This document shows positions 11,621 to 48,015 of a stretch of DNA of 64,000 bases, in pieces (positions within the stretch are counted from its first letter, which is position 1; every line of letters begins with the position of its first letter). The stretch comes from Microbacter margulisiae (GTDB lineage Bacteria > Bacteroidota > Bacteroidia > Bacteroidales > Paludibacteraceae). The translations under genes were made by a program, and so were the position numbers. The stretch covers positions 1,364,001 to 1,428,000 of the forward strand of contig NZ_JACHYB010000001.1 in NCBI RefSeq assembly GCF_014192515.1, written 5' to 3'. Under the pieces are notes generated by a model. The model made no database searches. It saw only the letters and a program-made list of their open reading frames with translations, and had not been told where the DNA came from.

Positions 11621-11658
11621 TTTACAGGGTTTCAAGAATGTTTTAAGATTAGTTAGCG

Positions 11659-30813: not shown

Positions 30814-33800
30814 ATGAAAAAAACGATCTTATTGGTTTTAAGCTTAATCTATTTTGCATCTGTTAGTGCAATTGAAGTATGCAATCTGCGGACAGAAATG
30901 CTTACCAATCCCGAAGGAATTGACATCATCCATCCACATGTAAGTTGGATGACCGAAAGCAATGCCCGCAATGTAGTTCAGACTGCATACCAAATCATGG
31001 TAGCCTCCAGTCCGGAAAAACTAAATGCAGGACAAAGTGATATATGGAATTCCGGGAAGATTGTTTCCAATCAATCAATCAATGTCTTATACGGAGGAAC
31101 GACGTTACAAAGCGGGCATAACTATTACTGGAAAGTGAAAATATGGACAAACAAAGGAGAAAGCGACTGGAGTCAGCCGGCCCAGTGGAGTATGGGATTA
31201 TTGCATAAAGCCGACTGGCAAGGAGAATGGATTGGATTGGACAAAGCTTTTCCGTGGGATAAGCTTGTTTTTCACTCCCGTTTGTCAGCTCGTTACTTTC
31301 GAAAAGAGTTTGATGTAAATCACAAAAAGACCATTAAACAAGCCACAGCTTATATCATTGGCCTGGGGATGTATAAACTATACATCAATGGAGAAAAAAT
31401 TGGCAGCCAGGTATTATCACCCAGCCCAACCAATTATGATAAAGACGTAAAATATAATACGTTTGATGTAACAACCGCAATACGGCAAGGAGACAATGTT
31501 ATTGGAGTAGTTTTGGGGAATGGCCGCTATTTTAATATGCGTCAAAACTACAAACCACAAAAAATTAAAACGTTTGGATTCCCAAAAATGTTATTTCAGT
31601 TACAAATTGAATATACAGACGGGACTAGTTCAACCATCGTTAGTGATGGCACATGGAAAGTAACCCCGGACGGGCCTATTCGTAGCGATAATGAATGGGA
31701 TGGCGAAGAATACGATGCAACCAAAGAATTAACAGGATGGGATTTGCCGCATTACAATACAAAGAAATGGCTTCCGGCTGAATTAGTATCAGCTCCAACG
31801 GGCATCATATCAGCTCAAATGAATCCAAACATGGCAATACACGAATCTGTAAAGCCGGTCGCCATTCATGCCTTACCTAACGGTGCATATGTTCTTGATA
31901 TGGGACAAAACATGGCAGGATGGTTAGCATTGAAAGCACAAGGCCAGAAAGGAGATACAATTACACTCCGTTTTGCAGAAACCCTAAACCCGGATGGTTC
32001 TATAAACCGGGCTAACTTACGCAGTGCACTCCAGACCGATGTATATATCATGAATGGCAAAGGAGTGGAATCATGGCAACCCTCTTTTGTATATCATGGA
32101 TTCCGTTATGTTGAAATTACAGGATATCCCGGCGTTCCCACACTAAATGATTTTGAAGGAAAAGTAATATACGATGGGTTCAACACCATCGGTTCATTTA
32201 CCTGTTCGGATTCATTGCTGGACAAGATATATCACAATGCATTCTGGAGTATTCGCAGTGATTATAAAGGCATGCCTGTAGATTGTCCTCAACGGGATGA
32301 ACGTCAGCCGTGGCTTGGAGACCGCGCCTCCGGGTGTATCGGTGAAAGTTTCATCTTCGATAATGAAAACCTATACATTAAATGGCTCGATGACATCATG
32401 TATTCGCAAAAACCTGATGGACAACTACCTGATATGGCTCCTGCTTTTTACAAAACATATTACTCGGATAATATGACGTGGCCGGGAACTTATTTAATGG
32501 TAGCAAACATGTTGTATGATCAGTTTGGAGACAGTGCAGTGATAAAAAAACATTACCCCCATATGAAACAATGGCTTTCGTATATGAAAACACACTATAT
32601 GAAAGACTATCTTTTAACAAAAGATAAATATGGGGATTGGTGTGTACCTCCTAAATCGAAAACGCGGATTCATTCTATAGATCCTGCACGCCTGACTTCA
32701 GGAGAATTAATTTCCACGGCATATTATTATTATTTTATGCAGCTAATGGAGAAATTCGCAAAAATATCCGGGAATGAACAAGACATTCCAGCATATATCG
32801 CATTGGCAGCAAATATAAAAACGGCCTTTAATCAGAAATTCTATAATAAAGAAACATACCAATATGGAAACAATACCGTTACTGCCAATCTTTTACCGCT
32901 GGCTTTCGGAATGGTAAACAACGATAATGAAAACGCAGTTTTTCATCAAATGTTGGATAAGATTGTGAATCAGGATAAAATGCATATAAGCACCGGCGTC
33001 ATCGGCACACAATGGTTGTTGCAAGAATTGACACAACAAGGCAGAACCGATGTAGCTTTTAGAATTGCCACACAAAAAGACTATCCAAGTTGGGGATATA
33101 TGGTAGAAAACGGAGCTACTACTACCTGGGAATTATGGGATGGAAATACAGCCAGTCCAAAAATGAGCTCCCGTAATCATGTGATGTTGCTTGGTGATCT
33201 GATAGCCTGGATGTATGAAGATTTAGCAGGCATTCAGACCCATCCGAATCATCCGGGATTTAAGTGGTTGGTGATGGAACCCCATCCTGCAGAAACATTA
33301 AAAGATGTAAGCGCACAAACAATGACTCCGTATGGTGTGGTAAAAAGCGCTTGGACCCTGCATAAAGGAATCTTCACATGGCATGTTTCCATTCCGGCAA
33401 ACACAAGAGCAAACCTGTTAATTCCGGCATCAACTGTCAATGATATAACAGAAAATGGCAACCCTGTGATGAAAATAGAGGGTATCAAATTTGTACGCGT
33501 AGAGGATTACCGCATTAATCTTGAAATAGGCTCCGGCGATTATACGTTTGTATGCAAATATGGGGAAGCTCAAAATCGTTGGAAAGCGGGCATTATTGCA
33601 GATGAGTTTATTAATAAAAATGCACCTTATCCGGAATGCCATGCTGCCACTATTGCACAAGCGACAAATGGGAATCTGGTTGCCGCATGGTTTGGCGGTA
33701 CCAAAGAACGTAATCCGGATGTCTGCATATGGGTAAGCCGTCGTGTAAACGGGAAATGGACTCCAGGCGAAAACGTAGCAAATGGAATCATCAATGATAC

Positions 33801-35433
33801 GTTACGCTACGCATGCTGGAATCCGGTTTTGTATCAAGTTCCCGGGGGAGAACTCCAGTTATATTACAAAGTTGGTCCAAATACCGCAAAATGGAAAGGT
33901 AAATTAATTGTATCACATGACGGAGGCATTACCTGGTCGAAACCACAGGATTTACCTGCCGGCTTCCTAGGCCCAATCAAAGACAAACCGGTATTGCTAA
34001 AAAATGGAACCTTAATTGCTCCTTCAAGTACTGAAAGTGGAGGCTGGAAAATCCATTTCGAACTAACAAAGAACTTTGGCAAAACATGGAAGTATGCCGA
34101 ACCTGTTGATGGCAATAATTTCCAGGCTATACAACCAACTATTCTTGTACATAAAAATGGCGAATTACAAATGCTTTGCCGGACAACAGAACGCACTATT
34201 GCCGAATCATGGTCAAAAAATAATGGCAAAACATGGTCTCCTCTGGAAAAGACCTCATTACCCAATAACAATTCGGGCATAGATGCAGTTACCCTAAGAA
34301 ATGGCTACTTCTTGCTTGTCTATAATCACGTATTGCCACCAGCAAATGCCATAAGGGGTAAAGGAGCAAGATCTCCGCTGAATATAGCAGTTTCTCCTGA
34401 CGGAAAGACATGGTACGCAGCCGTAGTATTGGAAGATTCTCCTATTGGGCAATATTCTTATCCCTCTGTAATTCAATCATCGGATGGAAACATACAGATC
34501 GTATATACCTGGCGGAGAAAAGCTATTAAATACGTGGAGATTGATCCGACAAAACTTATATTTTCAAAAATCGAAAATGAACAATGGCCTTCAGACTCAG
34601 AAACAAAAGAAATCAATATTGTAAATCTACATAGATACAAGGTTTCAGTCTGCGATTGGATGATCCTGAAACGCCAGAAATTGGGAGCAATCGATTTGGC
34701 TAAAGAGATTGGAACAGACGGCGTCGAAGTAGATATGGGAGGACTAGGGAAAAAAGTTGACTTTGCGAATAAGCTGAACCAGAAAAAGGTGCAAGAAGAG
34801 TACATTGGAGAATGTAACCGGTTAGGCATGCAAATTAGTTCCATCGCCATGTCCGCCTTTTATGGACAATCATTTGCAACACGACCTAACTATGAGCAAC
34901 TGGTTGATGAATGTATATCGGTCATGAAAGCCTTAAAAGTGAAAGTGGCATTTTTACCTCTTGGAGATGAATGTGATAAAGTGAAACACCCGGATCTTTA
35001 TCCAATCATATTACAACGGTTGAAAGTGATTGCAAAAAAAGCGGAAGCCGCCGGAGTCGTGATTGGAATTGACACTTCAATACCTGCGAAAGCAGAAGCA
35101 GAGCTGATTGATCAGGTAGGTTCGCCTGCCATTCGTTGCTATGTAAATTTTTCTACTATCCTGAAACGCCATGGCAATATTTGCAAAGATCTGAAGACAC
35201 TGGGGAAAGACCGCATTATTCAAATACATGCTACCAATACAGATGGATATTGGCTGCAAAACGATCCTCGTATCGATATGGCCAAGATTAAAGAAACACT
35301 CGATAAGATGGGTTGGAGTGGCTGGTTGGTTCTTGAACGTTCGAGAGACACTAAAGATGTGCATAACGTAAAATGGAATTATAGCGCCAACGCTGCTTAT
35401 CTCAAAAAGATATTTCAACAATCAATACGTTGA
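30814..35433 (+). CDS. Three-module fusion: GH78 alpha-L-rhamnosidase, BNR sialidase-like propeller, sugar isomerase/epimerase-like TIM barrel
   Basis: 1539 residues in one uninterrupted frame with a signal peptide (about 1-18). Residues about 20-915 are a complete GH78 with 'DCPQRDERQPWLGD' (490-503) and 'GATTTWELWDG'. Residues about 925-1262 are a BNR/sialidase-like propeller with Asp-box-type repeats: 'SHDGGITW' (1034), 'TKNFGKTW', 'SKNNGKTW' and 'SPDGKTW', plus 'PECHAATIAQATNGN' at its start. Residues about 1269-1539 are a xylose-isomerase/AP-endonuclease-type TIM barrel ('VSVCDWMILKRQKLGAIDLA', 'GTDGVEVDMGG', 'GWSGWLVLERSRD'). These modules are normally separate proteins, and an isomerase-like domain on a secreted protein is odd. 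A plausible joint task is Rha-Kdo side chain C. No frameshift is needed to explain it. Confidence 0.85.
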   Translation: MKKTILLVLSLIYFASVSAIEVCNLRTEMLTNPEGIDIIHPHVSWMTESNARNVVQTAYQIMVASSPEKLNAGQSDIWNSGKIVSNQSINVLYGGTTLQSGHNYYWKVKIWTNKGESDWSQPAQWSMGLLHKADWQGEWIGLDKAFPWDKLVFHSRLSARYFRKEFDVNHKKTIKQATAYIIGLGMYKLYINGEKIGSQVLSPSPTNYDKDVKYNTFDVTTAIRQGDNVIGVVLGNGRYFNMRQNYKPQKIKTFGFPKMLFQLQIEYTDGTSSTIVSDGTWKVTPDGPIRSDNEWDGEEYDATKELTGWDLPHYNTKKWLPAELVSAPTGIISAQMNPNMAIHESVKPVAIHALPNGAYVLDMGQNMAGWLALKAQGQKGDTITLRFAETLNPDGSINRANLRSALQTDVYIMNGKGVESWQPSFVYHGFRYVEITGYPGVPTLNDFEGKVIYDGFNTIGSFTCSDSLLDKIYHNAFWSIRSDYKGMPVDCPQRDERQPWLGDRASGCIGESFIFDNENLYIKWLDDIMYSQKPDGQLPDMAPAFYKTYYSDNMTWPGTYLMVANMLYDQFGDSAVIKKHYPHMKQWLSYMKTHYMKDYLLTKDKYGDWCVPPKSKTRIHSIDPARLTSGELISTAYYYYFMQLMEKFAKISGNEQDIPAYIALAANIKTAFNQKFYNKETYQYGNNTVTANLLPLAFGMVNNDNENAVFHQMLDKIVNQDKMHISTGVIGTQWLLQELTQQGRTDVAFRIATQKDYPSWGYMVENGATTTWELWDGNTASPKMSSRNHVMLLGDLIAWMYEDLAGIQTHPNHPGFKWLVMEPHPAETLKDVSAQTMTPYGVVKSAWTLHKGIFTWHVSIPANTRANLLIPASTVNDITENGNPVMKIEGIKFVRVEDYRINLEIGSGDYTFVCKYGEAQNRWKAGIIADEFINKNAPYPECHAATIAQATNGNLVAAWFGGTKERNPDVCIWVSRRVNGKWTPGENVANGIINDTLRYACWNPVLYQVPGGELQLYYKVGPNTAKWKGKLIVSHDGGITWSKPQDLPAGFLGPIKDKPVLLKNGTLIAPSSTESGGWKIHFELTKNFGKTWKYAEPVDGNNFQAIQPTILVHKNGELQMLCRTTERTIAESWSKNNGKTWSPLEKTSLPNNNSGIDAVTLRNGYFLLVYNHVLPPANAIRGKGARSPLNIAVSPDGKTWYAAVVLEDSPIGQYSYPSVIQSSDGNIQIVYTWRRKAIKYVEIDPTKLIFSKIENEQWPSDSETKEINIVNLHRYKVSVCDWMILKRQKLGAIDLAKEIGTDGVEVDMGGLGKKVDFANKLNQKKVQEEYIGECNRLGMQISSIAMSAFYGQSFATRPNYEQLVDECISVMKALKVKVAFLPLGDECDKVKHPDLYPIILQRLKVIAKKAEAAGVVIGIDTSIPAKAEAELIDQVGSPAIRCYVNFSTILKRHGNICKDLKTLGKDRIIQIHATNTDGYWLQNDPRIDMAKIKETLDKMGWSGWLVLERSRDTKDVHNVKWNYSANAAYLKKIFQQSIR

Positions 35434-36132: not shown

Positions 36133-38361
36133 ATGAAGCAAACGAATTATCAACTATTTGATTTCTTAGATTTTAATCCTGCACTGAATGAAGGTGACAG
36201 GCTCTGGAGAGCGTGTACTCCAACGTCTATTGAAGCCAAAGAAGGAGACATACTGATTACAATTCCATTTCAACAGCAATTAAACTCGAACGAGATTAAT
36301 CCAGACACCTCCGTAGCACGAAAATCCTATCAAATGAGGTTGCGTGCATATGGTACCAAAATCATCCGGGCCGCTATCGGCTTTGATACCGAATGGATGG
36401 AAACCTCCGCAATGTTACAGCTTGACTCTCATCTAACCAAAAACCATTTACACTTTGAGAAAGCTGAATACGAATGGATTGTAAAAGATTCCGACAATCA
36501 AACAAAAGCTATTGTAGATTTTCATCCTGTTGAAACAGATTGGTGGAGCGATTTGGTTCCGGCGCCGGCAGAAACCATCAACCTGGCATTTTTTCCCGAT
36601 GGACAACATGAAGTAAAATTATCAGCATATGACATGTTCTCGCCGGCACGTCACGACGCTTTTGCATTGGCATTTATAGAAAAAGATGGGCAGCCTCATC
36701 GCGCTACCTGTGCTATTCAGGCCAAAGCAGACGAATGTTTTACCGGGACAGGGGAACGTTTTGCAAAAATGGATCTATCGGGGCACACATTCCAATTGTA
36801 TAACCAGGACGGGCAAGGGGTAAATAATCGCCGCGCTTACAAAAATATTCCGTTCTATCTCTCCAGTGCGCCTTACGGTCTGTTTTTACATACTACTTCG
36901 TTTGCCAAATTTTCATTGGCAGATCATTCCACGCGTTCAGCCCAAATCCTGGCAGAAGAGCCTGTTATTGATCTTTTCCTTATTGGCGGAGACAATGCAG
37001 AGCAAATTCTTTATGGATATCGACAACTGACGGGATTCCCGGCAATGCCTCCAGTGTGGAGCTTTGGCACATGGATGAGCCGGATGACATATTTTTCGGC
37101 TGATGAAGTGAATAAGATTTGCCATCGAATGCGAGTTGAAGGATACCCATGCGATGTGATTCATCTGGACACAGGATGGTTCAAAACCGACTGGTTATGT
37201 GAATGGAAATTCAATGAAGAACGTTTTCCCAATCCAAAGAAATTTATCGCCGGTCTTAAGGGAAATGGTTACCGTGTGAGTTTATGGCAATTGCCCTACA
37301 TTTCATACGATGCCGAACAATATGAAGAGGCTAATGAAAACGATTATATAAGCAAAAGTGAACGAAAGATTTCCGGATCATCCAATTTTAGCATCCAGGA
37401 TTATGCCGGTACGATTGATTTTACTTACGACAAAGCGACGGAATGGTACAAAAACCTGTTAAAAAGATTGCTGGATATAGGAGTTGCCTGTATTAAAACA
37501 GACTTTGGAGAAGATATTCATCTGGATGCAAAATATCACTCCATGACACCGGAAAAACTGCATAATCTCTATCCTTTGCTTTATCAAAAAGCAGCTTACG
37601 AGATAACAAAAGAAGTTACAGGCGACGGCATTATATGGGCGCGTGCCGGTTGGGCAGGATGCCAGCGCTATCCGTTACATTGGGGAGGCGATTCAGCCTG
37701 TTCCTGGGATGGATTGGCAGGATCGTTAAAAGGAGGCTTGCATCTTGGCCTTTCGGGGTTTGGATTCTGGAGCCATGATGTACCTGGTTTTCATGGAGTG
37801 CCAAACTTTATGAATTCAAAACTACCGGAAGATATTTATGTACGTTGGACACAATTCGGCGTATTCTCATCGCATTTACGTTATCACGGCTCACATGCCC
37901 GCGAACCCTGGCTCTATCCCAATATTGCCCCGATTATCAAACAATGGTTGCAGTTGCGGTATCATCTCATTCCATACATTTTGGAACAAAGCCAAAAGGT
38001 GACGTGTAGTGGTTATCCGATGATTCGCGCTCTTTTATTCCATCATCCGCAAGATAGGACTTGCTGGCATATCGACGATCAGTACTATTTCGGCGATAAT
38101 ATCATGGTGGCTCCCGTGATGAACCCGGACAACCGTCGTGACATTTATTTACCGGAAGGAAAGTGGGTACATTTCTTTACAAAAGAGATTACAGAGGGAG
38201 CCCGATGGTTGAGAAATGTAGCAGTACCCCTTTCGGAAATGCCGGTTTATGTAAAATATGGAGCTGAAATTCCTTTCTATCCTGAACAGGTAAATTGTAC
38301 GGATGAAATGAATTTAAGCAAAACGATCAAGATACGTTTCGACGAAAATACACCTAAATAA
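36133..38361 (+). CDS. Cytoplasmic GH31 alpha-xylosidase-like enzyme; candidate 2-O-methyl-alpha-D-xylosidase
   Basis: 742 residues with no signal peptide, unlike almost every other hydrolase here. YicI-type GH31: N-terminal beta-domain, catalytic barrel with nucleophile Asp457 in 'CIKTDFGEDI' and acid/base Asp520 in 'HWGGDSACSW', then C-terminal beta-domains ('NIMVAPVMNPDNRRDIYLPEGKW'). GH31 enzymes of this type release alpha-xylose. RG-II side chain A ends in 2-O-methyl-D-xylose alpha-1,3-linked to fucose. The next gene, six bases away, is a URO-D-type methyltransferase-like protein that begins a corrinoid cluster. I infer that it acts on an imported 2-O-methyl-xylosyl-fucose; plain alpha-xylosidase activity is the fallback. 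Confidence 0.88.
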   Translation: MKQTNYQLFDFLDFNPALNEGDRLWRACTPTSIEAKEGDILITIPFQQQLNSNEINPDTSVARKSYQMRLRAYGTKIIRAAIGFDTEWMETSAMLQLDSHLTKNHLHFEKAEYEWIVKDSDNQTKAIVDFHPVETDWWSDLVPAPAETINLAFFPDGQHEVKLSAYDMFSPARHDAFALAFIEKDGQPHRATCAIQAKADECFTGTGERFAKMDLSGHTFQLYNQDGQGVNNRRAYKNIPFYLSSAPYGLFLHTTSFAKFSLADHSTRSAQILAEEPVIDLFLIGGDNAEQILYGYRQLTGFPAMPPVWSFGTWMSRMTYFSADEVNKICHRMRVEGYPCDVIHLDTGWFKTDWLCEWKFNEERFPNPKKFIAGLKGNGYRVSLWQLPYISYDAEQYEEANENDYISKSERKISGSSNFSIQDYAGTIDFTYDKATEWYKNLLKRLLDIGVACIKTDFGEDIHLDAKYHSMTPEKLHNLYPLLYQKAAYEITKEVTGDGIIWARAGWAGCQRYPLHWGGDSACSWDGLAGSLKGGLHLGLSGFGFWSHDVPGFHGVPNFMNSKLPEDIYVRWTQFGVFSSHLRYHGSHAREPWLYPNIAPIIKQWLQLRYHLIPYILEQSQKVTCSGYPMIRALLFHHPQDRTCWHIDDQYYFGDNIMVAPVMNPDNRRDIYLPEGKWVHFFTKEITEGARWLRNVAVPLSEMPVYVKYGAEIPFYPEQVNCTDEMNLSKTIKIRFDENTPK

Positions 38362-38367
38362 ATAGCT

Positions 38368-39432
38368 ATGTCAACCTGGAAAGCAAACTTTGAAGCATCA
38401 AAACAGCACTATCTGGACTGGTGGAATCAAAAAGGTATTGTGTTAACGATGTGGGAACATATAACTAAGGAGGGCGCTCCCTATGCGAATGTCCTCCCTC
38501 CTACTCCACATAAAGATATGAATCAGTTTTGGTTCGATCCACAATGGAGAGCCGGCTATTTACATTATACCATGTCGCGCAATTCGTACATGGCCGATAT
38601 CCTTCCCGTAGCCAATACGCAACTGGGGCCGGGTTCTCTGGGAGCCATTTTAGGAGCAGATCTTGAAGGACGTGAAGATACGATTTGGATTCGGGACAAA
38701 AGTGATTTTAATGGCGACATCATCCTTGATGAAAACAATAAATGGTTAAAACTCCATTTCGATTTGCTTAAGGCATGCAAAGCAAAGGCACAAGGAAACT
38801 ATTTTGTAGGATGTCCTGATCTGATAGAAGGACTTGATGTTTTGGCCAGTTTAAAAGGATCAGACAACGTGCTAATGGACATGATACTCGATCCGGATAA
38901 GACCCTGGAACAGTTGCAGGCAATCAATGATGCTTATTTCAAAGTATTCGACGCTATTTATGACATTATCAATATTGACGGGGAGATGGCCTTTTGTTAT
39001 TTTTCAATCTGGGGACCCGGTAAAGTTTCAAAACTTCAGGCTGACATTTCCATTATGATCTCTGAAGAAGATTTCCGAACATTTTCCATGCCGTTTCTTC
39101 AGGAACAGTGTAATAAAATCGATTATACGCTTTACCATCTGGATGGCGTAGATGCAATCCGGCACCTCGATGCAATCCTTGAAATCGGGAATCTCAATGC
39201 AGTTCAGTGGACGCCAGGATATGGGCAACCACAAGGCGGCAATCCTCAATGGTATGACCTATACAGGAAAATATTGGCTAATGGGAAATCCGTTATGGCG
39301 AACTGGGTCACCATGGACGAATTACAGCCGTTACTTGACAATGTAGGCAATCAGGGATTACATATCAATGTCGATTTTAAATCAGAGAAAGAAATAGAAC
39401 AGGCAATGAAAATCGTAGAGCAATACCGTTAA
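38368..39432 (+). CDS. URO-D superfamily protein, putative corrinoid-dependent methyltransferase (lacks H-x-C zinc motif)
   Basis: 354 residues, cytoplasmic. The fold pattern matches uroporphyrinogen-decarboxylase-like proteins: 'NYFVGCPDLIEGLDVLASLKG', 'WGPGKVSKLQADISIMIS', 'LYHLDGVDAIRHLDAILEI' (His257) and 'AVQWTPGYGQPQGG'. Where thiol methyltransferases of this superfamily have His-x-Cys, it has His-Leu-Asp, so it is unlikely to be an MtaA-type thiol methylase. Genuine HemE is improbable in this context. Six bases after GH31 and in the same block as a corrinoid protein and activase, it could be a substrate-specific methyltransferase I taking the methyl group from a methylated sugar. Substrate and chemistry are inferred. 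Confidence 0.72.
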   Translation: MSTWKANFEASKQHYLDWWNQKGIVLTMWEHITKEGAPYANVLPPTPHKDMNQFWFDPQWRAGYLHYTMSRNSYMADILPVANTQLGPGSLGAILGADLEGREDTIWIRDKSDFNGDIILDENNKWLKLHFDLLKACKAKAQGNYFVGCPDLIEGLDVLASLKGSDNVLMDMILDPDKTLEQLQAINDAYFKVFDAIYDIINIDGEMAFCYFSIWGPGKVSKLQADISIMISEEDFRTFSMPFLQEQCNKIDYTLYHLDGVDAIRHLDAILEIGNLNAVQWTPGYGQPQGGNPQWYDLYRKILANGKSVMANWVTMDELQPLLDNVGNQGLHINVDFKSEKEIEQAMKIVEQYR

Positions 39433-39488
39433 ACGCATACAACCCGATACAAATTGTTAACCATTCATCTTATCCAAATTATTATCTA

Positions 39489-41057
39489 ATGATAAATGTC
39501 TTAAGTAGCCTTCGATCTCTCGATTTTGTCATCATTGCCATATACCTGATTGTGTTGGTTGGCATCGGATATTGGGTCAGCTTTGTGAAGAAGAAAAAAG
39601 AGAACGAAAACATATTTCTTGCCGAACATTCACTAACATGGCCATCCATCGGTCTTAACATGTGGGGAACAAACGTAGGCCCATCCATGCTGTTAGCTTC
39701 TGCCAGCGCTGGATACACAACAGGCATTGTAGCAGGAAACTTTGCGTGGTATGCATTTATTTTTATTTTAATGTTAGCGGTAATTTTTGCACCACGCTAT
39801 TTAGGTGCTAAAGTTTCCACTTTGCCAGAATACATGGGAAAGCGGTTTGGACAATCCACACGCCACCTGTTAGCCTGGTATACATTAATTACCATATTAA
39901 TCTCATGGCTATCATTAGGCCTTTTTGCTGGTGGTATCATGGTGGAACAATTATTAGGAATCCCAATGTGGTCGTCTATTTTGATAATGGTCGTGCTGGC
40001 AACGGTACTTACTGCTGCCGGAGGTTTGAAGGCGATTGCATATACCAGTGTTTTTCAAATGATTTTGTTGATTGTGGTTTCATTAACACTGACGCTGATC
40101 GGACTCGAACGCATTGGGGGAGCCTCTGCATTGTTTCACCATACCCCTGCAAATTATTGGGATATGTTTTTACCAAACTCAAACAAAGACTTTCCATGGC
40201 TTGCCATTATTCTGGGATATCCTGTTATGGGAATATGGTTTTGGTGTACGGAGCAGTCAATGGTTCAATCTGTTCTGGGAGCGAAGAACTTAAAACAGGG
40301 ACAATTGGGAGCAAGTTTTATAGGATGGTTAAAAATTCTGGATGTACCCTTATTTATCATTCCGGGAATTATTTGTTTCGTTCTTTTTCCTCATTTATCA
40401 AACCCGGACACTGCTTATCTTGTCCTGATTACTAATTTATTCCCCATGGGAATGAAAGGGCTGATCATAGTAGTGCTGCTAGCCGCATTGATAGGGAATG
40501 TAGGATCGTCGCTCAATTCTGTAAGTACCGTTTATACGATGGACATCTATTTGAAGAAACACAATCCCAACGCCACAAATGCCGAGATTATAAAAACAGG
40601 CAGATGGGTTACGGTGGTCAGCGCTATTGTTGCGGTTGCAATTGCATTAGCAATCGATAATATTAAGGGACTGAATCTTTTCAACATATTCCAGTCTGTA
40701 TTGGGATTTTTAGCGCCCCCGATGTCGGTAACTTTTCTTTTTTCCGTATTATGGAAGAATACATCCCGCAAAGCCATTAACTGGGTGCTGTCTGCAGGAA
40801 CATTTTTGTGTTTAGCCGTCGGAATTTTGTTTTATGACAAACTCATATTCAAAGATCTGCATTTCCTGTATCTCTCATTTTTCCTGTTTATCCTTCTTTC
40901 TCTGTTTGTTGTCGTGTATTCATTGTTAGACAGATATAGCAACAGGGAAGAAGAAAACATGTTGAAATATGAACATATAAAAGTGTCACGCACGGTCAAA
41001 ATTTCATGGGGGTTATTATGCGTGACGATGGTTATTCTATACGTTATCTTTAGATGA
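39489..41057 (+). CDS. SGLT-type sodium/sugar symporter (SSS family)
   Basis: 522 residues with about 14 hydrophobic helices. 'NENIFLAEHSLTWPSIGLNM', 'ISWLSLGLFAGGI', 'GGLKAIAYTSVFQMIL' and 'CTEQSMVQSVLGAKNLKQGQ' mark the sodium/glucose branch of SSS, distinct from the symporter near 15.4 kb. Inner-membrane location. It is surrounded by the URO-D-like genes and follows the cytoplasmic GH31, so the cargo is probably a neutral mono- or disaccharide from RG-II. A methylated sugar or 2-O-methyl-xylosyl-fucose would fit, since a cytoplasmic GH31 needs its substrate imported. Confidence 0.87.
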   Translation: MINVLSSLRSLDFVIIAIYLIVLVGIGYWVSFVKKKKENENIFLAEHSLTWPSIGLNMWGTNVGPSMLLASASAGYTTGIVAGNFAWYAFIFILMLAVIFAPRYLGAKVSTLPEYMGKRFGQSTRHLLAWYTLITILISWLSLGLFAGGIMVEQLLGIPMWSSILIMVVLATVLTAAGGLKAIAYTSVFQMILLIVVSLTLTLIGLERIGGASALFHHTPANYWDMFLPNSNKDFPWLAIILGYPVMGIWFWCTEQSMVQSVLGAKNLKQGQLGASFIGWLKILDVPLFIIPGIICFVLFPHLSNPDTAYLVLITNLFPMGMKGLIIVVLLAALIGNVGSSLNSVSTVYTMDIYLKKHNPNATNAEIIKTGRWVTVVSAIVAVAIALAIDNIKGLNLFNIFQSVLGFLAPPMSVTFLFSVLWKNTSRKAINWVLSAGTFLCLAVGILFYDKLIFKDLHFLYLSFFLFILLSLFVVVYSLLDRYSNREEENMLKYEHIKVSRTVKISWGLLCVTMVILYVIFR

Positions 41058-41118
41058 AATAAAATATATTTTGAATTCAACGATTAACCGAACTCACATC
41101 TATATACCTATACCAAAG

Positions 41119-42156
41119 ATGAATCATAAAGAACGATTTCATGCAACAATTGCCAATCAGCCGGTTGACAGACCTGCTTCCTGGTTAGGGCTTCCCGTAC
41201 CAGATGCACAAAAAGGATTAAAGGACTTTTTTAAGGTAAACTCTATTGATGAATTGAAGATGCTAATTGATGATGATATCTACCCCATTGATGTTCCTTA
41301 TCATTTCCCTCCATCCAATCATATTGCCTGTGCTTTTAAATTTGCGAAAGTGGCTCATGATGACAAACCGGATGACAGAACGCTGACAGCTCCAGGTTTT
41401 TTTGAGGACATTGACGATCCAGACGATGTGAATAAATTTGATTGGCCGGATCCTGAAAAATACCTTGACAGAGAAGAATCAAAAAGATGGGCTCAAGCTG
41501 TTGATGAAAATTATATTCGGATGGGTATTATGTGGAGCGCCCATTTTCAGGATGCATGCTCTGCTTTCGGCATGGAAAAGGCGCTTATGGTCATGCTGAC
41601 CAATCCCGATATGTTTACCGCTGTAATAGATAAAATCACAGAATTTTATCTAAGAGCAAACGAATTGTTTTATGAAGCCACTAAAGGATATTTAGATGCA
41701 ATATTGATCGGGAATGACTTTGGCAGCCAAAACGGATTAATGGTTGATCCGGAATCATTACGAACCTATGTATTTCCGGGAACCAAAAAACTAATCGATC
41801 AGGCAAAAAGTTATGGATTGAAAGTGATTCACCATTCATGTGGATCTATTTTCCCTATAATTAATGATTTGATAGACATGGGAGTTGATGCAATTCATCC
41901 TATCCAGGCATTGGCTCAGGATATGGATGCCCCAACTCTAAAGGCTAATTTCGGTGGGAAAACAGCTTTTTGCGGAGGAGTCGATGCGCAGCATTTACTT
42001 GTTAATGGCACACCGGATGAGGTAGCCTGCAAAGTACATGAGTTACGGGAAATCTTTCCGACAGGATTAATCATTTCCCCTAGTCATGAAGCCATACTCC
42101 CCGATATTCCACCTGCTAATATCAAAGCAATGTTTGATGCAATCAAAAACCATTAA
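41119..42156 (+). CDS. URO-D/MtaA-family methyltransferase-like protein with H-x-C motif
   Basis: 345 residues from ATG 41119 ('MNHKERF', the usual start of this family); the in-frame TTG at 41071 adds a leader with no family resemblance. Cytoplasmic. Putative metal ligands are His239 and Cys241 in 'HHSCGSIFP' and Cys285 in 'FCGGVDAQHLL'. At the C-terminal site where MtaA has Cys it has 'SPSHEAILPDIPP' (His323). Such proteins move methyl groups to or from corrinoid proteins. Position between a symporter and RhaM, and 1.5 kb upstream of the corrinoid protein, supports membership in one methyl-transfer system, either as a second substrate methyltransferase or as a methyl-acceptor enzyme. Confidence 0.78.
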   Translation: MNHKERFHATIANQPVDRPASWLGLPVPDAQKGLKDFFKVNSIDELKMLIDDDIYPIDVPYHFPPSNHIACAFKFAKVAHDDKPDDRTLTAPGFFEDIDDPDDVNKFDWPDPEKYLDREESKRWAQAVDENYIRMGIMWSAHFQDACSAFGMEKALMVMLTNPDMFTAVIDKITEFYLRANELFYEATKGYLDAILIGNDFGSQNGLMVDPESLRTYVFPGTKKLIDQAKSYGLKVIHHSCGSIFPIINDLIDMGVDAIHPIQALAQDMDAPTLKANFGGKTAFCGGVDAQHLLVNGTPDEVACKVHELREIFPTGLIISPSHEAILPDIPPANIKAMFDAIKNH

Positions 42157-42205
42157 TTATCATTCAGATAAATAGACAGATAACGCAAGATTCCGTAATC
42201 ACCTC

Positions 42206-42544
42206 ATGAAAAACAATATGAATCGACGATTTGGGCAAATAATCCGGTTAAAGCCAGAAGGAGCCGACGCTTACATTCGGTATCATTCAGCAGTGTGGAA
42301 AGATGTGCTCGATACCATCAAACAGTGTCATATAACAAACTATTCCATATATCATAAAGACAACATATTGTTTGCATATTTTGAATATGCCGGCAATGAC
42401 TTTGAAGGAGACATGGATAAAATGGCGGCAGATCCGGAAACACAAAAATGGTGGGCAGTTGTAAAGCCTTTGATGGAACCTATTGAGACCAGAAACGCAA
42501 ACGAATTCTGGGCAGATATGGAAGAGATTTTTCATTTGGACTAA
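42206..42544 (+). CDS. rhaM: L-rhamnose mutarotase
   Basis: 112 residues, cytoplasmic, full family length. Typical sequence: 'RLKPEGADAYIRYHSAVW' with the family's Tyr and His, 'NYSIYHKDNILFAYFEY', 'MDKMAADPETQKWWAVV' and 'LMEPI'. Interconverts alpha and beta anomers of L-rhamnose so that the isomerase RhaA is supplied. An alternative start is at Met5 ('MNRRFGQ'). It is 36 bases upstream of rhaT, an understandable pair for uptake of the abundant rhamnose from RG-II. It interrupts the methyltransferase genes, suggesting co-transcription of sugar uptake and demethylation. Confidence 0.9.
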   Translation: MKNNMNRRFGQIIRLKPEGADAYIRYHSAVWKDVLDTIKQCHITNYSIYHKDNILFAYFEYAGNDFEGDMDKMAADPETQKWWAVVKPLMEPIETRNANEFWADMEEIFHLD

Positions 42545-42580
42545 AAAAACAGATTCAGGCTTCAATTATTATAACATCTT

Positions 42581-43642
42581 ATGATTACGCCAAATCCAAT
42601 AATGGGGACATTTTTTCATGCAGTAGGGGGAGCTTCTGCATCTACATGTTATCTGCCATATCAAAAGACGAATCGTTGGTCGTGGGGAACTTTTTGGTTA
42701 GCTCAATCTGTATTTGCATGGCTGTTAATGCCTCTTTTAATTGGCGTTATTACAGTCCCTTATTTTTTTGACATCTTGCTGCAAGCTCCTCCAAAAGTGA
42801 TTTGGGGCGCCTTTTTATTGGGGGCAGTATATGGTTTCGGCGGCATGTCTTTTGGATTTGCTATCCGAAATATAGGATATTCGCTTACGTACACCATAGG
42901 CATTGGGCTTTCTGCCATTTTAGGGACTGTGACCCCGCTTTTATTAAAAGGAGAAATCATCGAATATTTTTCGCGACCAGGAAGTAATATTGTATTATGG
43001 GGAATGGTGTTATCCATCATCGGCGTAGCGCTTTGCGGACTGGCAGGTTTCCGGAAAGAACGTGATTTAGGTGAGCATAAAAAAGAACAAAATTTTAATA
43101 TGACGGTCGGACTAATGCTTGCCATTATAGCAGGATTACTATCGGCAGTTTTTAATATTTCACTGGAAGTCGGACAACCTATTGCTGATTTAGCAGCCAA
43201 AAGCGGCGCCGGAGAGTTTCAAGGCGATGCAAAATTAATTGTCTCAACCGCAGGTTGCTTTGTCGTTAATTTAATATGGTTTCTGGTATTGGGCATCAGG
43301 CAAAACACATTAAAGGAGTTTATCCATTCCGAACTAACAACCAAACAAAAAGCAAAAAATCTTTTGTGGTCAGCTATTGCCGGCTCTTTATGGTGCGGAC
43401 AATTCTTTTTCTATGGGCTGGGACATGTGCGCATGGGTGATTTTAAGTTTGTCAGTTGGGTTCTGCATATGTCCATGCTGATATTCTTTAGTTATATCGT
43501 AGGAGTTGTGATGAAAGAATGGAAAAATGTATCAAAGAGAACTTATGCAATGTTGCTGTTTGCTTTATTCATTTTGATCATTGCTTCAGTAACCATCTCC
43601 TATGGCAGCTTTTATGGAGATTTGACCGCTAATGCCAAATAA
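42581..43642 (+). CDS. rhaT: L-rhamnose/proton symporter RhaT
   Basis: 353 residues with about ten membrane helices. The RhaT signature runs along the whole length: 'GTFFHAVGGASASTCYLPYQ', 'RWSWGTFWLAQSVFAW', 'YGFGGMSFGFAIRNIGYSLT', 'GLLSAVFNISLEVGQPI', 'IAGSLWCGQFFFYGLGH' and 'FKFVSWVLHMSMLI'. Imports L-rhamnose released by the GH78 and GH106 enzymes encoded in the window. No rhaA, rhaB or rhaD is present, so catabolism is encoded elsewhere. Confidence 0.95.
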   Translation: MITPNPIMGTFFHAVGGASASTCYLPYQKTNRWSWGTFWLAQSVFAWLLMPLLIGVITVPYFFDILLQAPPKVIWGAFLLGAVYGFGGMSFGFAIRNIGYSLTYTIGIGLSAILGTVTPLLLKGEIIEYFSRPGSNIVLWGMVLSIIGVALCGLAGFRKERDLGEHKKEQNFNMTVGLMLAIIAGLLSAVFNISLEVGQPIADLAAKSGAGEFQGDAKLIVSTAGCFVVNLIWFLVLGIRQNTLKEFIHSELTTKQKAKNLLWSAIAGSLWCGQFFFYGLGHVRMGDFKFVSWVLHMSMLIFFSYIVGVVMKEWKNVSKRTYAMLLFALFILIIASVTISYGSFYGDLTANAK

Positions 43643-43698
43643 ACGGTAACGCATAAAATAGATTATCAATAATTACACACTAAACAAAAAAAATCGAC

Positions 43699-44367
43699 AT
43701 GAATCAAGAGCTCTTACCTCAATTATCCGAATGCGTTGAATTCGGAAAGATAAATCTGGCATCCCCCTATCCTCCTGCTATGAAAGGAAAACCAGGCGCG
43801 GATGAATACGCACAACAAGCTATTGAAGAAGGAATAACACCTAATGACATATTAGACGAGTTAATAGGCGCCATGAACAAAGTTGGCCAGAAGTTTAGCG
43901 AAAATAAGATTTTCGTACCACAAATGCTCCTATCCGCAAAAGCCATGAATGCCGCAATGATGCACCTAAAACCATTTTTCATGAGTGGCGCAGTTCAACG
44001 AAAAGGCGTTTTTATTATCGGTACAGTTTTCGGCGATTTACATGACATAGGAAAAAACCTGGTAAGCATGATGATTGAAGGAGCAGGCTGGGAGGTAATT
44101 GATTTAGGCATTGACGTGAAGGCTGACAAGTTTGTTGAAGCCATACAGCAACATCCTGGAGCTGTGGTAGGCATCTCAGCATTACTAACCACAACCATGG
44201 TCAATATAAAACCGGTAATTGAAGCTGTAAAAACAACTTCTGCCAATACCAGGATTATTGTAGGAGGTGCTCCCCTTTCGGCTGAATTTGCACAATCTAT
44301 CGGAGCAGACGCATATGGAAGAACGCCACAAGACAGCATCAAATGGTTGGACTCCATATCAAACTAA
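43699..44367 (+). CDS. Corrinoid (cobalamin-binding) methyl-carrier protein, MtaC/MtbC-like
   Basis: 222 residues, cytoplasmic. Residues about 1-95 form the helical cap ('AIEEGITPNDILDELIGAMN', 'KFSENKIFVPQMLLSAKAMN'). Residues about 100-222 form the Rossmann B12-binding domain with the Asp-x-His-x-x-Gly box, Asp113-His115-Gly118, where His115 is the lower axial cobalt ligand, then 'VGISALLTTTM' and 'IIVGGAP'. Such proteins shuttle a methyl group between two methyltransferases in methanol, methylamine and O-demethylase systems. It is followed by an MtaA-like gene and an activase gene, giving the core of a complete system inside an RG-II locus. Confidence 0.92.
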   Translation: MNQELLPQLSECVEFGKINLASPYPPAMKGKPGADEYAQQAIEEGITPNDILDELIGAMNKVGQKFSENKIFVPQMLLSAKAMNAAMMHLKPFFMSGAVQRKGVFIIGTVFGDLHDIGKNLVSMMIEGAGWEVIDLGIDVKADKFVEAIQQHPGAVVGISALLTTTMVNIKPVIEAVKTTSANTRIIVGGAPLSAEFAQSIGADAYGRTPQDSIKWLDSISN

Positions 44368-44436
44368 ATATCAATCTGAGTTATATTGTCTATTACATTT
44401 TTAAAATTCATAATTTTCAAAAAACACAACACAATC

Positions 44437-45438
44437 ATGAAGCCATGGATTGATACCGTTTTAGCAAGCAAAAAACAGATTGCATTACCCTTAATGACTC
44501 ATCCCGGGATAGAAGCCATTGGGAAAAGTGTTAAAGAAGCTGTTTCCAACGGACAAATTCATTATGAAGCCATAAAAGCCGTATCAGAACAATTCGATGT
44601 AAAGGCTTGTTCTGTCATTATGGACCTTACTGTGGAGGCAGAAGCTTTTGGTGCAGCCATTAAAATGCCAGATAATGAAGTTCCTACCATCGTAGGTCAG
44701 CTTGTTTCAGATGCCGCTTCAATAGCAGCGCTTGAAGTTCCTGCCCTGGATAAGGGGCGTATCCCCGCCTATTTGTTAGCCAACAAATTAGCTGCTGAAA
44801 ACATTAAAGATAAACCCATTTTCTCCGGATGTATAGGGCCATTCTCACTTGCCGGGCGTTTGTATGACATGTCAGAAATCATGGTTGCCATCTATATTGA
44901 TCCCGAAAGTATTCGTCAGCTTTTAGCGAAATGCACAGACTTTCTTATCAATTATTGCAAGGCGTTAAAAGCAACCGGAACACAGGGTGTTGTTATTGCA
45001 GAACCGGCAGCCGGATTATTATCAAACGATGATTGCATGGAGTTTTCCACAACGTACGTTCAACAAATAACAAAAGCCGTTCAGGACGACTCATTCACTG
45101 TTATATTGCATAATTGCGGGAATACCGGCCATTGCACCAATGCCATGATAGCCAGCGGCGCGCGGGGATTACATTTTGGGAATAAAATCGACATGATTCA
45201 AACGCTTAAGGAATGCCCTTCGGATATACTCGTCATGGGAAATCTGGATCCGGTAGAAGTTTTCAAACATGCTGAGCCTAAAAAAGTATATGAAGAAACC
45301 ATGAGTCTGTTACAACAAACAACAGCATATTCTAATTTTGTAATTTCATCGGGTTGCGATATTCCTCCCCACGTCCCAACAGACAATATAAAGGCATTTT
45401 TTCGGGCGGTCAACGAATATAACAATCAATTTAACTAA
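44437..45438 (+). CDS. MtaA/CmuA-type corrinoid methyltransferase (URO-D superfamily, zinc H-x-C...C)
   Basis: 333 residues from ATG 44437 ('MKPWIDTVL'); the in-frame extension to 44386 is AT-rich leader. Cytoplasmic. The MtaA zinc set is complete: His225 and Cys227 in 'ILHNCGNTG' and Cys307 in 'SSGCDIPPHVP'. MtaA/MtbA methylate a thiol (coenzyme M in archaea) from a methyl-corrinoid, while CmuA-type relatives load the corrinoid. Coenzyme M is not expected in Bacteroidota, so the acceptor would be another thiol such as homocysteine, or the enzyme works in the loading direction. It lies between the corrinoid protein and activase genes. Confidence 0.82.
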   Translation: MKPWIDTVLASKKQIALPLMTHPGIEAIGKSVKEAVSNGQIHYEAIKAVSEQFDVKACSVIMDLTVEAEAFGAAIKMPDNEVPTIVGQLVSDAASIAALEVPALDKGRIPAYLLANKLAAENIKDKPIFSGCIGPFSLAGRLYDMSEIMVAIYIDPESIRQLLAKCTDFLINYCKALKATGTQGVVIAEPAAGLLSNDDCMEFSTTYVQQITKAVQDDSFTVILHNCGNTGHCTNAMIASGARGLHFGNKIDMIQTLKECPSDILVMGNLDPVEVFKHAEPKKVYEETMSLLQQTTAYSNFVISSGCDIPPHVPTDNIKAFFRAVNEYNNQFN

Positions 45439-45464
45439 ACAAAAGAGCCGGAATAAAATAAGTC

Positions 45465-46181
45465 ATGCAACATAGCCAGTTCCATTCATATCGTTTTACT
45501 TTTCAAGAAGTAAGTCCTACGTTAGATGATATTTTTTCTGTCTTACGTTTAGATCAAGAGGAAGAAGATCATCCTGCTACAGTATTTGTCAATGAGATCT
45601 TTCCAAAATTACATGGGAACAAAGACATCATAGGTGGATATAATATTTTGCCTGTCAATAAAATACAAATAAGAGAAGGCATGATTGAGATTGCAGGTAC
45701 AAACCTGCATCTTGAACGGCAAATCTGTAGCTATATGAAAGGGGCAACATCGGCTGCGCTGTTTCTGTGTACAGCCGGAAATATATTTACCAAACTGGCA
45801 AATCAGTTGACAAATAAAGGAGATTTGCTGGAAGCCTATATTGTAGATGTAATAGGATCATTAACAGTGGAAAATGCCATGGATAAAATCCAGGATATTT
45901 TGTCATCTGAGGCCTCATTAGAAAATCTGAATATTAGCAATCGCTATAGCCCTGGATATTGTAATTGGCATTTAGCGTCCCAAGAAACATTATTTCATTT
46001 GATAGGAACAAATCCTACCGGTATTTCATTAAGTGAATCTTGTCTTATGCAACCCATCAAATCGGTAAGCGGCATCATTGCCATTGGGGCAGAAGTCAAA
46101 AAAAGAGCCTATGGATGCCCTGTTTGTAAAAATCAGAGTTGTATTTACCGGAATATTCAACGACATGAAGAGAGAGCCTAA
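45465..46181 (+). CDS. Corrinoid activase with methionine-synthase (MetH) activation domain
   Basis: 238 residues, cytoplasmic. The C-terminal half matches the vitamin-B12-dependent methionine synthase activation domain: 'NRYSPGYCNWHL' (AdoMet-binding RxxPGY-like turn), 'PTGISLSESCLMQPIKSVSG' and a Cys-rich tail, Cys218-x2-Cys221-x4-Cys226 in 'GCPVCKNQSC'. Stand-alone proteins of this kind accompany corrinoid methyltransferases and reductively remethylate inactive cob(II)alamin with AdoMet. There is no methionine synthase catalytic part here. Its presence strongly implies that the preceding corrinoid protein undergoes redox turnover. Its 3' end overlaps the GH141 start by 17 bases. Confidence 0.85.
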   Translation: MQHSQFHSYRFTFQEVSPTLDDIFSVLRLDQEEEDHPATVFVNEIFPKLHGNKDIIGGYNILPVNKIQIREGMIEIAGTNLHLERQICSYMKGATSAALFLCTAGNIFTKLANQLTNKGDLLEAYIVDVIGSLTVENAMDKIQDILSSEASLENLNISNRYSPGYCNWHLASQETLFHLIGTNPTGISLSESCLMQPIKSVSGIIAIGAEVKKRAYGCPVCKNQSCIYRNIQRHEERA

Positions 46182-48015
46182 AATTTATCTGTTGCTTTGC
46201 TTATTAAGCATATCGGCAACCTTGTTGGGAATCAATATTTACATCTCCCCGACCGGGAATGACAATTCGGGAGGGTCAATCCAGGCGCCATATGCAACGT
46301 TATACAGGGCTTTATGGCAAGCCCGCGAGCTACGTCGTTTGCATAAGGTGTCGGTAAAAGATACAGTCCATATTATCCTGAAAGGAGGAACTTATCCTCT
46401 TTATGAACCGCTTGTTATTCGTCCTGAAGACAATGGGACAAAAACTAGTCCTACAATCATTGAAAATGCCCATAATGAGCAGCCCATAATCAGTGGAGGA
46501 ATCGCAATAACAGGATGGGAAAAATCAGGAAATTTCCAGGTTGCTTCTGTACCGGAATTTAACGGAAACAAGGTCAACTTTAGACAATTATGGATTAATG
46601 GGCGTAAAGCTGTCAGAGCGCGTAATGTATCCGACTTCAATAAAATGGATCGGATATTAGGATTTAACAAACAAACCAGAACGCTCTGGATTCCGGCATC
46701 TTCAGTCCGGGGATTGACCAATATTCCGCATACCGAACTTGACCTTCTCCAGATGTGGGAAGTGGCTAACTTGCGCATTAAATCCATCCGGTTTCATGGA
46801 GACTCTGCCGGGGTAACCTTTCACAATCCTGAATCTCAAATAGAATTTGAACATCCATGGCCGCATCCGATGATTCAAAAAGGGAATAACTCACCGTTCT
46901 ATTTGACAAATAATATAGCATTTCTGGATCAACCGGGCGAATGGTATTATGATCAAGATCAGTCTAAAATCTATTATTTGCCTCGTAAAGGGGAAGATAT
47001 GAATAATGTCAAAGCTGTAATTCCTGTCCTACAAACGCTGATCGAGATAAAAGGGACGCCGGATCATCCGGTTCAATATATTCAGTTCAAAGGGATTGGA
47101 TTTGAATATGCAGGCTGGACACGTCCTTCTGAAAAAGGGCACGTTCCTCTGCAAGCGGGAATGGATATATTGGAAGGATATTCCTTAAAGCCTCCGGGAG
47201 CATTAGGAAATAAAAATAAAGGACTTGAAAATCAGGCATGGATAAAACGACAACCTGCTTCGGTATCCTTAACCGACACCCGGAACATAACCATTAAACA
47301 ATGCAAGTTTGAGCATTTGGGAGCATGCGGGCTGGATATTATTTCAGGATCAAAATTCACGACGGTAAAAGGATGCCTCTTCCGCGATATAGCAGGAAAC
47401 GGCATGCAGATCGGTTCTTTTGACGATAACGGATCGATAGAAACCCATATGCCCTATCATCCTGCCGACAAACGTACCGTATGTTCTGATCAACGTATTA
47501 TGGATAATTACATTACGAATGTCTCTAACGAAGATTGGGGCTGCGTCGGGATTGCTGCCGGGTTTGTCAAAAATATTTATATTGAACATAATGAAATAAA
47601 TGATGTTTCATACACCGGAATTAGTTTAGGATGGGGTTGGACAAAAAGTCCCAATTGCATGAGAAACAATCATGTTATCGCCAATTATGTTCATCATTAT
47701 GCAAAGCACATGTACGATGTCGCAGGAATATACACTCTTTCGGCACAACCAAAAACGATTATCGAGGACAATGTGGTGGATAGTATCTACACACCGTCTT
47801 ATGCACATGATCCGAATCATTGGTTTTACCTTTACACAGACGAAGGGTCATCCTATATAACGATTAAAAATAACTGGACTCCGGCGGAAAGATTCCTGAA
47901 AAACGCAAATGGGCCGGGAAACGTCTGGAAAAACAACGGGCCAACAGTATCTGACAGCATAAAAGAACATGCCGGATTGGAAAAGAAATACCGATTCTTA
48001 CAGAAAGAATTCTGA
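46165..48015 (+). CDS. Secreted GH141 alpha-L-fucosidase-like enzyme (BT1002-like)
   Basis: 616 residues from ATG 46165 ('MKREPKIYLLLCLLSIS', a signal peptide); the upstream in-frame TTG at 46078 lies inside the activase gene and would destroy the export signal. Right-handed parallel beta-helix: 'YISPTGNDNSGGSIQAPYAT' start, 'VSLTDTRNITIKQCKFEHLG', 'AGNGMQIGSFDDN', 'VGIAAGFVKNIYIEHNEIND' and 'SYTGISLGWGW', with Asp-containing loops near the end. GH141 (BT1002) removes L-fucose from RG-II side chain A. The same neighbours, a short GH78 and GH127, follow here. Confidence 0.87.
   Translation: MKREPKIYLLLCLLSISATLLGINIYISPTGNDNSGGSIQAPYATLYRALWQARELRRLHKVSVKDTVHIILKGGTYPLYEPLVIRPEDNGTKTSPTIIENAHNEQPIISGGIAITGWEKSGNFQVASVPEFNGNKVNFRQLWINGRKAVRARNVSDFNKMDRILGFNKQTRTLWIPASSVRGLTNIPHTELDLLQMWEVANLRIKSIRFHGDSAGVTFHNPESQIEFEHPWPHPMIQKGNNSPFYLTNNIAFLDQPGEWYYDQDQSKIYYLPRKGEDMNNVKAVIPVLQTLIEIKGTPDHPVQYIQFKGIGFEYAGWTRPSEKGHVPLQAGMDILEGYSLKPPGALGNKNKGLENQAWIKRQPASVSLTDTRNITIKQCKFEHLGACGLDIISGSKFTTVKGCLFRDIAGNGMQIGSFDDNGSIETHMPYHPADKRTVCSDQRIMDNYITNVSNEDWGCVGIAAGFVKNIYIEHNEINDVSYTGISLGWGWTKSPNCMRNNHVIANYVHHYAKHMYDVAGIYTLSAQPKTIIEDNVVDSIYTPSYAHDPNHWFYLYTDEGSSYITIKNNWTPAERFLKNANGPGNVWKNNGPTVSDSIKEHAGLEKKYRFLQKEF

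Follow-up and report, generated by a model that had tools for sequence, protein, structure and literature searches.

A predicted corrinoid-dependent system for oxygen-free demethylation of 2-O-methyl sugars in a rhamnogalacturonan II degradation locus of Microbacter margulisiae

We analysed a stretch of 64,000 nucleotides of the Microbacter margulisiae genome (contig NZ_JACHYB010000001.1, positions 1,364,001 to 1,428,000; hereafter the window) and identified, within a predicted locus for degradation of rhamnogalacturonan II (RG-II), a gene cassette that we read, with moderate confidence, as a corrinoid (vitamin B12) system. This system is predicted to demethylate both 2-O-methyl sugars of RG-II without oxygen, with the methyl group likely passing to homocysteine to yield methionine. 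A preliminary description of this DNA had placed five cassette genes within less than 8 kb on the same strand, among RG-II hydrolases and sugar transporters, and had proposed oxygen-free demethylation of 2-O-methyl sugars. All five gene positions were reproduced on rechecking, as were the domains, that of the gene at 38368 by predicted fold, and its proposal gained genomic support from a marker survey and from fusions to corrinoid domains in other species. The cassette is real; two of its genes had gone unlisted, namely a GH31 glycosidase (36133–38361), ending 6 bp before the gene at 38368, and a RhaM-type mutarotase (42206–42544). From directly observed gene content, domains, fusions, conserved neighbours and co-occurrence, we infer every reaction and both substrates.

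The genome consists of two contigs (3.56 Mb), and the cassette lies in a plus-strand gene run (36133–46181) with intergenic gaps of 6–69 bp. The order is GH31 (Pfam GH31), an alpha-xylosidase-like enzyme predicted to act in the cytoplasm and set 2-O-methyl-D-xylose free; MT_A (38368–39432), a predicted methyl-sugar:corrinoid methyltransferase for 2-O-methyl-xylose, assigned by its predicted UroD fold and by fusions in relatives; an SSS-family sodium:solute symporter (39489–41057; Pfam SSF), which is predicted to import sugar for the MT_A module; MT_B (41119–42156), a predicted methyl-sugar:corrinoid methyltransferase for 2-O-methyl-fucose, assigned by a partial URO-D match and by its neighbours, with an additional possible TTG start at 41071; the RhaM-type protein of the L-rhamnose mutarotase family (PF05336, 108 bits); a RhaT-type sugar:proton symporter (42581–43642; PF06379, 192 bits); CORR (43699–44367), a corrinoid protein and presumed methyl carrier with B12-binding and B12-binding_2 domains (Pfam/NCBIfam); an MtaA-type protein (44437–45438; URO-D, H-x-C...C site), predicted to be a methyl-corrinoid:thiol (homocysteine) methyltransferase; and ACT (45465–46181; PF02965, 40 bits), a stand-alone MetH-type activation domain and predicted reductive reactivase of CORR. 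These are followed by a BT_1002-like GH141 enzyme (46111–48015, plus strand; PDB 5mqp, 761 bits; PF21231), whose true start is probably at about 46165, overlapping the end of ACT. As a neighbour, this GH141 gene ties the cassette to RG-II.

In the proposed mechanism, the SSS symporter would import fragments and GH31 would free 2-O-methyl-D-xylose in the cytoplasm, whereupon MT_A would transfer the methyl group of this sugar to the Co(I) of CORR. MT_B, together with the RhaT symporter and the RhaM mutarotase, would demethylate 2-O-methyl-L-fucose onto the same carrier. The MtaA-type protein would then take the methyl group off CORR and hand it to a thiol, which is most likely homocysteine; in some relatives this step may instead be performed by a MetH-type homocysteine methyltransferase, either separate or fused to MT_A. 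ACT would rescue oxidised CORR using S-adenosylmethionine, and the freed xylose and fucose would enter ordinary catabolism.

On the donor side, the best NCBIfam match of GH31 was the alpha-xylosidase model PRK10658 (476 bits, under its cut-off of 606), and the best PDB match was 5f7c (1143 bits). No signal peptide was detected in the window protein or in any of 65 relatives by a crude test that has false negatives, having missed the protein at 8279, whose start looks signal-peptide-like by eye. Because GH31 is alpha-xylosidase-like and its relatives also lack an evident signal peptide, it probably works in the cytoplasm alongside MT_A. The closest relatives of MT_A were found in Bacteroidetes, Paludibacter among them. 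MT_A had no match in Pfam, NCBIfam or PDB sequences, whereas its predicted structure matched MtaA/UROD and places it in the UroD/MtaA fold. Since the profile comparison with MT_B was weak (E 5e-4, probability 32%) and that with MtaA not significant, the tie of MT_A to the UroD superfamily rests on fold rather than on sequence. H257 and D259 were invariant in all 83 near rows and all three distant rows of the alignment, and this His-x-Asp falls, in a weak alignment, at the place matching the thiol-type site of the MtaA-type protein. The family is large and unnamed (3225 database matches). MT_B matched URO-D (PF01208; 95 bits) over its C-terminal two thirds only, its model matched MtaA/UROD, and it reached PDB 4ay7 by sequence at 5e-5. 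The preliminary description had counted three URO-D/MtaA-superfamily proteins; Pfam bears this out for 44437 and 41119, and the predicted fold alone does so for 38368.

On the acceptor side, CORR keeps the intact D113-x-H-x-x-G box, as had been described, and the box was present in 53 of 53 CORR-type open reading frames (ORFs). Its best NCBIfam match, below cut-off, was a glycine-betaine corrinoid protein model. The MtaA-type protein matched URO-D with 194 bits (MtaA/CmuA-like) and the methyltransferase MtaA (PDB 4ay7) at E 7e-21, and its H225, C227 and C307 (H-x-C...C) did not vary across the 10 rows aligned. With the His-Cys...Cys site typical of thiol methyltransferases intact, it more likely sits on the acceptor side than acts as a demethylase, and homocysteine is added here as the likely acceptor. 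The MetH-type nature of ACT was upheld by its PF02965 match. Its sole PDB relative (E 9e-5) was 1j6r, a chain of 214 residues that stands alone and bears the name methionine synthase, and the relatives of ACT carry an R..PGY/F motif (37/39), which we take to be the S-adenosylmethionine-binding motif of MetH, and a C-terminal cysteine motif (38/39). Elsewhere in the genome, URO-D matches comprised only one probable HemE besides the MtaA-type protein and MT_B, and the two Pterin_bind matches corresponded to a 1235-codon MetH and a probable dihydropteroate synthase. No dedicated corrinoid:folate methyltransferase besides MetH was found by this Pterin_bind search, and folate as a direct acceptor through such an enzyme was accordingly rejected.

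Fusions in relatives link the donor and acceptor sides. The MT_A tree and alignment comprised 83 rows, in which some named loci come from the same genomes as unnamed ones. MT_A and CORR formed a single protein of approximately 600 residues in seven rows (Phocaeicola and Bacteroides, e.g., P. vulgatus ATCC 8482 and B. faecis MAJ27). In another 15 rows, from Prevotella-type genomes, L083 and L111, a homocysteine S-methyltransferase domain was joined to MT_A. CORR followed the homocysteine domain in the same frame in 14 of these 15, the remaining one (L067) stopping at a contig edge. The triple fusions were 929–971 residues long in 13 named loci, with a frame of 1012 codons in L111, and both chains scanned (L061 and L083) contained PF02574, PF02607 and PF02310. 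Among the best 120 database matches listed, which are near-copies rather than independent cases, 109 had all three domains and 11 had PF02574 only. Because MT_A in Prevotella-type genomes is fused to a MetH-type homocysteine methyltransferase and a corrinoid domain, homocysteine is likely to be the methyl acceptor. Stand-alone homocysteine methyltransferases occurred with CORR and ACT in L014 and L017 and with ACT in L038 (the L014 and L038 copies were checked with Pfam), in no case with an MtaA-type gene in the locus. As these three loci lie apart from one another and from the fused group on the MT_A tree, the homocysteine methyltransferase seems to have joined the MT_A donor more than once. 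A further locus without MT_A (L128) contained MT_B, the mutarotase, RhaT, CORR, a homocysteine methyltransferase and ACT.

Gene neighbourhoods were compared by tblastn in the best 80 of 321 related loci (the named MT_A loci). Sixty-eight had the 2.3 kb or more of upstream sequence needed to test for GH31, and 12 were too short. GH31 lay directly before MT_A, sharing its strand and separated from it by no more than 400 bp, in 51 of the 68 testable loci. Fully flanked loci, which extend 9 kb or more both upstream and downstream of MT_A, numbered 50 of the 80. In these, GH31 was adjacent in 39 and present anywhere in 45, the SSS symporter was downstream of MT_A in 40, and CORR, ACT, the MtaA-type gene, a homocysteine domain and MT_B occurred in 38, 33, 30, 11 and 10, respectively. 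At least one RG-II-type hydrolase of the window was found in 39 of the 50, the markers including the protein at 52383, whose guessed label 'GH139?' could not be verified. The GH31–MT_A order was also kept in loci from Planctomycetota and Verrucomicrobiota (L052 and L057). According to the available text of PMC12168206, chain A of RG-II contains an alpha-1,3-linked xylose that occurs as 2-O-methyl-D-xylose, which is lost in a mutant of one xylosyltransferase. Of the 12 named loci that contain MT_B, 10 had RhaT close by and 9 had the mutarotase. In three MT_B genomes without the RG-II marker (L104, L105 and L106), an alpha-L-fucosidase and a RhaT-like gene (29% identical to the window RhaT in L104) lay beside MT_B in every case. 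Across the 18 MT_B loci examined, alpha-L-fucosidase was found in four (L104–L106 and L132), a RhaT-type gene in eight, and MtaA and/or CORR in six; the fucosidase link is therefore suggestive but not constant.

Several related arrangements were observed in these loci. Distant MT_A relatives (26–28% identity) with the same H-x-D motif adjoin RhaT-like transporters and a GH36-type gene (L113, 6309–7403), another GH31 (L115, 2768–3850) or a GH106-like gene (L114), and are possibly demethylases for other methylated sugars. In one genome family, a second divergent URO-D protein and an MFS transporter lie beside MT_B and MtaA/CORR (L103, 8662–9786; also L135 and L136), and this protein might be a third donor enzyme. 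In L008, MT_A and the SSS symporter are separated by a gene for a Gfo/Idh/MocA-type oxidoreductase (11069–12130, assigned by Pfam), as they are in L035, L038, L039 and L055, whose copies look alike at the start. In L055 (Sunxiuqinia indica), a PhyH-type dioxygenase near MT_A (12884–13627) could represent an oxygen-dependent alternative.

The association with RG-II was surveyed across 392 genomes of the order, using as marker the BT_1020 propeller PF24067 (E<1e-80); this cut was chosen after viewing the list, and taking all 25 matches still gave an overlap of 8/8. MT_A-positive genomes were the eight with matches at E 2e-72 or better, carrying eight different family labels, and four distant matches (26–28% identity) were kept separate. 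A cassette without a tie to RG-II would have told against the preliminary description, and this survey favoured it: PF24067 was present in 8/8 MT_A genomes versus 12/384 others (20/392 overall; Fisher p 9.8e-12, or 1.9e-10 without our own genome) and in 43 of 49 named MT_A genomes (L035–L084 minus L070, with L005–L034 outside the search). MT_A was identical in L109/L033 and L108/L023, so that the named-locus and genome-draw surveys overlap. The marker occurred in none of the four genomes having only distant MT_A relatives and in 3/39 genomes having only distant MT_B relatives, i.e., at background. Orthologues of MT_B (at least 61% identity) were found in 8/392 genomes of the order, five of them with PF24067 (p 1e-5). 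In the class draw they were found in 1/376 genomes (our own genome only), which, set against the order draw, suggests a system restricted to few lineages. The family draws around G118, G324 and G098 gave 1/7, 7/71 and 8/13 genomes, respectively.

A number of results weigh against this interpretation. The insignificant profile comparison between MT_A and MtaA is one, and the window, L078, L025, L061 and L084 gave no Rfam match at the gathering threshold, hence no cobalamin riboswitch. PF24067 was absent from 6 of the 49 named MT_A genomes, and in P. vulgatus it lies approximately 0.24 Mb from the cassette; the link between MT_A and RG-II is one of genomes, not always of neighbourhoods. Among the 17 testable loci without an adjacent GH31, 14 are homocysteine-fusion loci, and corrinoid genes were out of reach of MT_A in 12 of the 50 fully flanked loci. 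Of these 50, 23 had MtaA only, 4 the homocysteine domain only and 16 neither within reach, and the MtaA-type gene was retained in 7 of the 11 that already have a homocysteine domain. Because both are kept in 7/11 loci and neither in 16/50, the two roles are not simply interchangeable. Furthermore, by our own rough estimate the methyl groups of RG-II exceed the need for methionine synthesis, so another methyl sink may exist.

Other explanations were also considered. The same chemistry might serve other substrates, with MT_A acting on the disaccharide 2-O-methyl-xylosyl-fucose or another methylated sugar, or with the roles of MT_A and MT_B swapped. GH31 and MT_A lack an evident signal peptide, which would allow import of an intact disaccharide; GH141, a family whose founding member is an alpha-L-fucosidase, stands ahead of GH31–MT_A in many gut loci; the family names of RhaT and RhaM refer to rhamnose; and distant MT_A relatives adjoin GH36 or another GH31. 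We nevertheless consider this explanation unlikely, given that the constant neighbour of MT_A is GH31 and no fucosidase, and that the alpha-L-fucosidases seen lie beside MT_B (4 of the 18 loci). It is less probable again that the cassette uses methanol from pectin methyl esters, or methylamines, in the manner of classical Mta/Mtt systems, and sits in an RG-II locus because pectin yields methanol. Pfam assigned none of the 35 ORFs of the window to a family of methanol or methylamine demethylases, on which ground such use was set aside, and this explanation leaves both the GH31 directly before MT_A and the RG-II marker unaccounted for; in its favour are the glycine-betaine corrinoid model matched by CORR and the published methylamine/trimethylamine label of BT_0340/0342/0343 (available text of PMC8941943). 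P450-type oxidation was likewise set aside, as none of the 35 ORFs is a P450.

A sulfur-type role, as in the mlp gene clusters of PMC10418091, appears the least probable of the three. The Type 1 mlp clusters of Kountz and Balskus, as the available part of that paper presents them, are proposed for methyl-sulfur/selenium and share with our cassette several UroD-superfamily proteins, a corrinoid protein, an activase and the lack of a folate methyltransferase; the thiol-type H-x-C...C site of 44437 also fits. The same text defines the type by Mlps with >25% identity to soluble CoM methyltransferase, including at least the Mlp2 and Mlp3 subtypes, and by a Ram/RACE activase. Against this CoM methyltransferase (4ay7), the 38368 protein gave no match, whereas the other two URO-D proteins gave those reported above. 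The cassette activase is a MetH activation domain (PF02965) rather than Ram/RACE, MT_A has the invariant His-x-Asp at the matching place of a weak alignment and no detectable sequence similarity to MtaA, and the glycosidase neighbours are left unexplained. A word search of the main text of PMC10418091 returned no sugar or Bacteroid terms.

The favoured interpretation, RG-II sugar demethylation, was compared with known systems. In the manner of the MetH methionine synthase, the Prevotella-type relatives carry homocysteine and corrinoid domains in one chain, and most of their loci also encode a MetH-type activation domain close by. Unlike MetH, they are joined to a UroD-fold MT_A, the Pfam folate-binding domain is absent from the two chains scanned (L061 and L083), and the predicted donor is a sugar ether; judged from its domains, this fusion would act like MetH at the acceptor end but is not a member of MetH. 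Corrinoid O-demethylases of acetogens and methoxydotrophic archaea (MtvB, OdmB/VdmB and MtoB) use aryl methyl ethers as their known donors. They resemble the cassette in encoding a UroD-fold methyltransferase together with a corrinoid protein and an activase, as seen here in the window gene order and in the corrinoid-domain fusions of relatives, and in moving an ether methyl group to Co(I), which is a prediction in our case. The cassette differs in its glycosidase and sugar-transporter neighbours and in the homocysteine-domain fusion of relatives, and the Pterin_bind search of its genome found no dedicated methyl-corrinoid:tetrahydrofolate methyltransferase like that of acetogen O-demethylase operons. 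These O-demethylases are mentioned in the available part of PMC10418091. In marine Flavobacteriia, a P450 demethylates 6-O-methyl-D-galactose in an oxygen-dependent reaction that forms formaldehyde (available text of PMC10033563); our cassette is similarly predicted to strip a methyl ether from a polysaccharide sugar, enabling its catabolism, but the 35 window ORFs include no P450. Judged from the genes of the cassette and its relatives, the system combines known parts with a predicted new donor class and a new donor–acceptor fusion.

A counterpart may exist in B. thetaiotaomicron. The B. faecis locus L063 has the order GH141-GH31-(MT_A-CORR), and its GH31 is near-identical over 746 residues (1701 bits) to PDB 5f7c, which we take to be BT_0339 of B. 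thetaiotaomicron. According to the available texts, BT_0338 is a GH141 (PMC8264420), BT_0339 is an alpha-xylosidase (PMC10434189), BT_0340/0342/0343 are called 'Mta' methylamine/trimethylamine corrinoid proteins, and this species has the B12-dependent MetH only (PMC8941943). The order of BT_0338–BT_0343 thus matches L063, whereas the published label differs. From the gene order and the alignment of the L063 GH31 with 5f7c, BT_0338–0343 looks like a tractable homologue of the cassette.

If correct, our interpretation would explain how anaerobes finish RG-II, the most complex pectin, provide a function for the large unnamed MT_A family, and correct the 'methylamine' label of BT_0340/0342/0343. 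For gut Bacteroides and Prevotella, it would tie pectin in the diet to the need for vitamin B12 and to the supply of methionine. In chemical terms, a corrinoid would be taking its methyl group from a sugar ether that is not activated. The preliminary description knew of no corrinoid system acting on sugar methyl ethers; neither such a system nor an oxygen-free removal route for the two methyl-ether sugars of RG-II was found in the literature searched, which did not cover most subscription journals. We see roughly even chances for a broader proposal, in which a B12-dependent methionine-making system is fed by a plant cell-wall sugar ether, a single Prevotella-type polypeptide is demethylase, homocysteine methyltransferase and corrinoid carrier, and the cassette founds a broader group of enzymes that demethylate methyl sugars without oxygen, every member being paired with a particular glycosidase and transporter (a xylosidase for MT_A, a fucosidase for MT_B, and GH36 or another GH31 plus a RhaT-like transporter for the distant relatives of MT_A).

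The surroundings of the cassette are of RG-II type, with apiosidase-like GH140, GH106, GH78, GH95 and GH127 genes in addition to GH141 and a BT_1020-like RG-II enzyme (8279–11620, plus strand; PDB 5mqr, 1587 bits), which carries the survey marker PF24067 (402 bits). The window therefore contains the RG-II-specific hydrolases of a degradation locus, i.e., the BT_1020 type, apiosidase and GH141. Between 17044 and 20437, genes of the iron alcohol dehydrogenase, PdxA and four-carbon-acid kinase types lie beside a DHDPS-type aldolase and an SSS symporter, and together suggest a sugar-acid route by which one of the rare sugars of RG-II would be used. Finally, a 1539-residue ORF (30814–35433) combines a GH78 rhamnosidase, a BNR/sialidase-like propeller and a xylose-isomerase-like TIM barrel.

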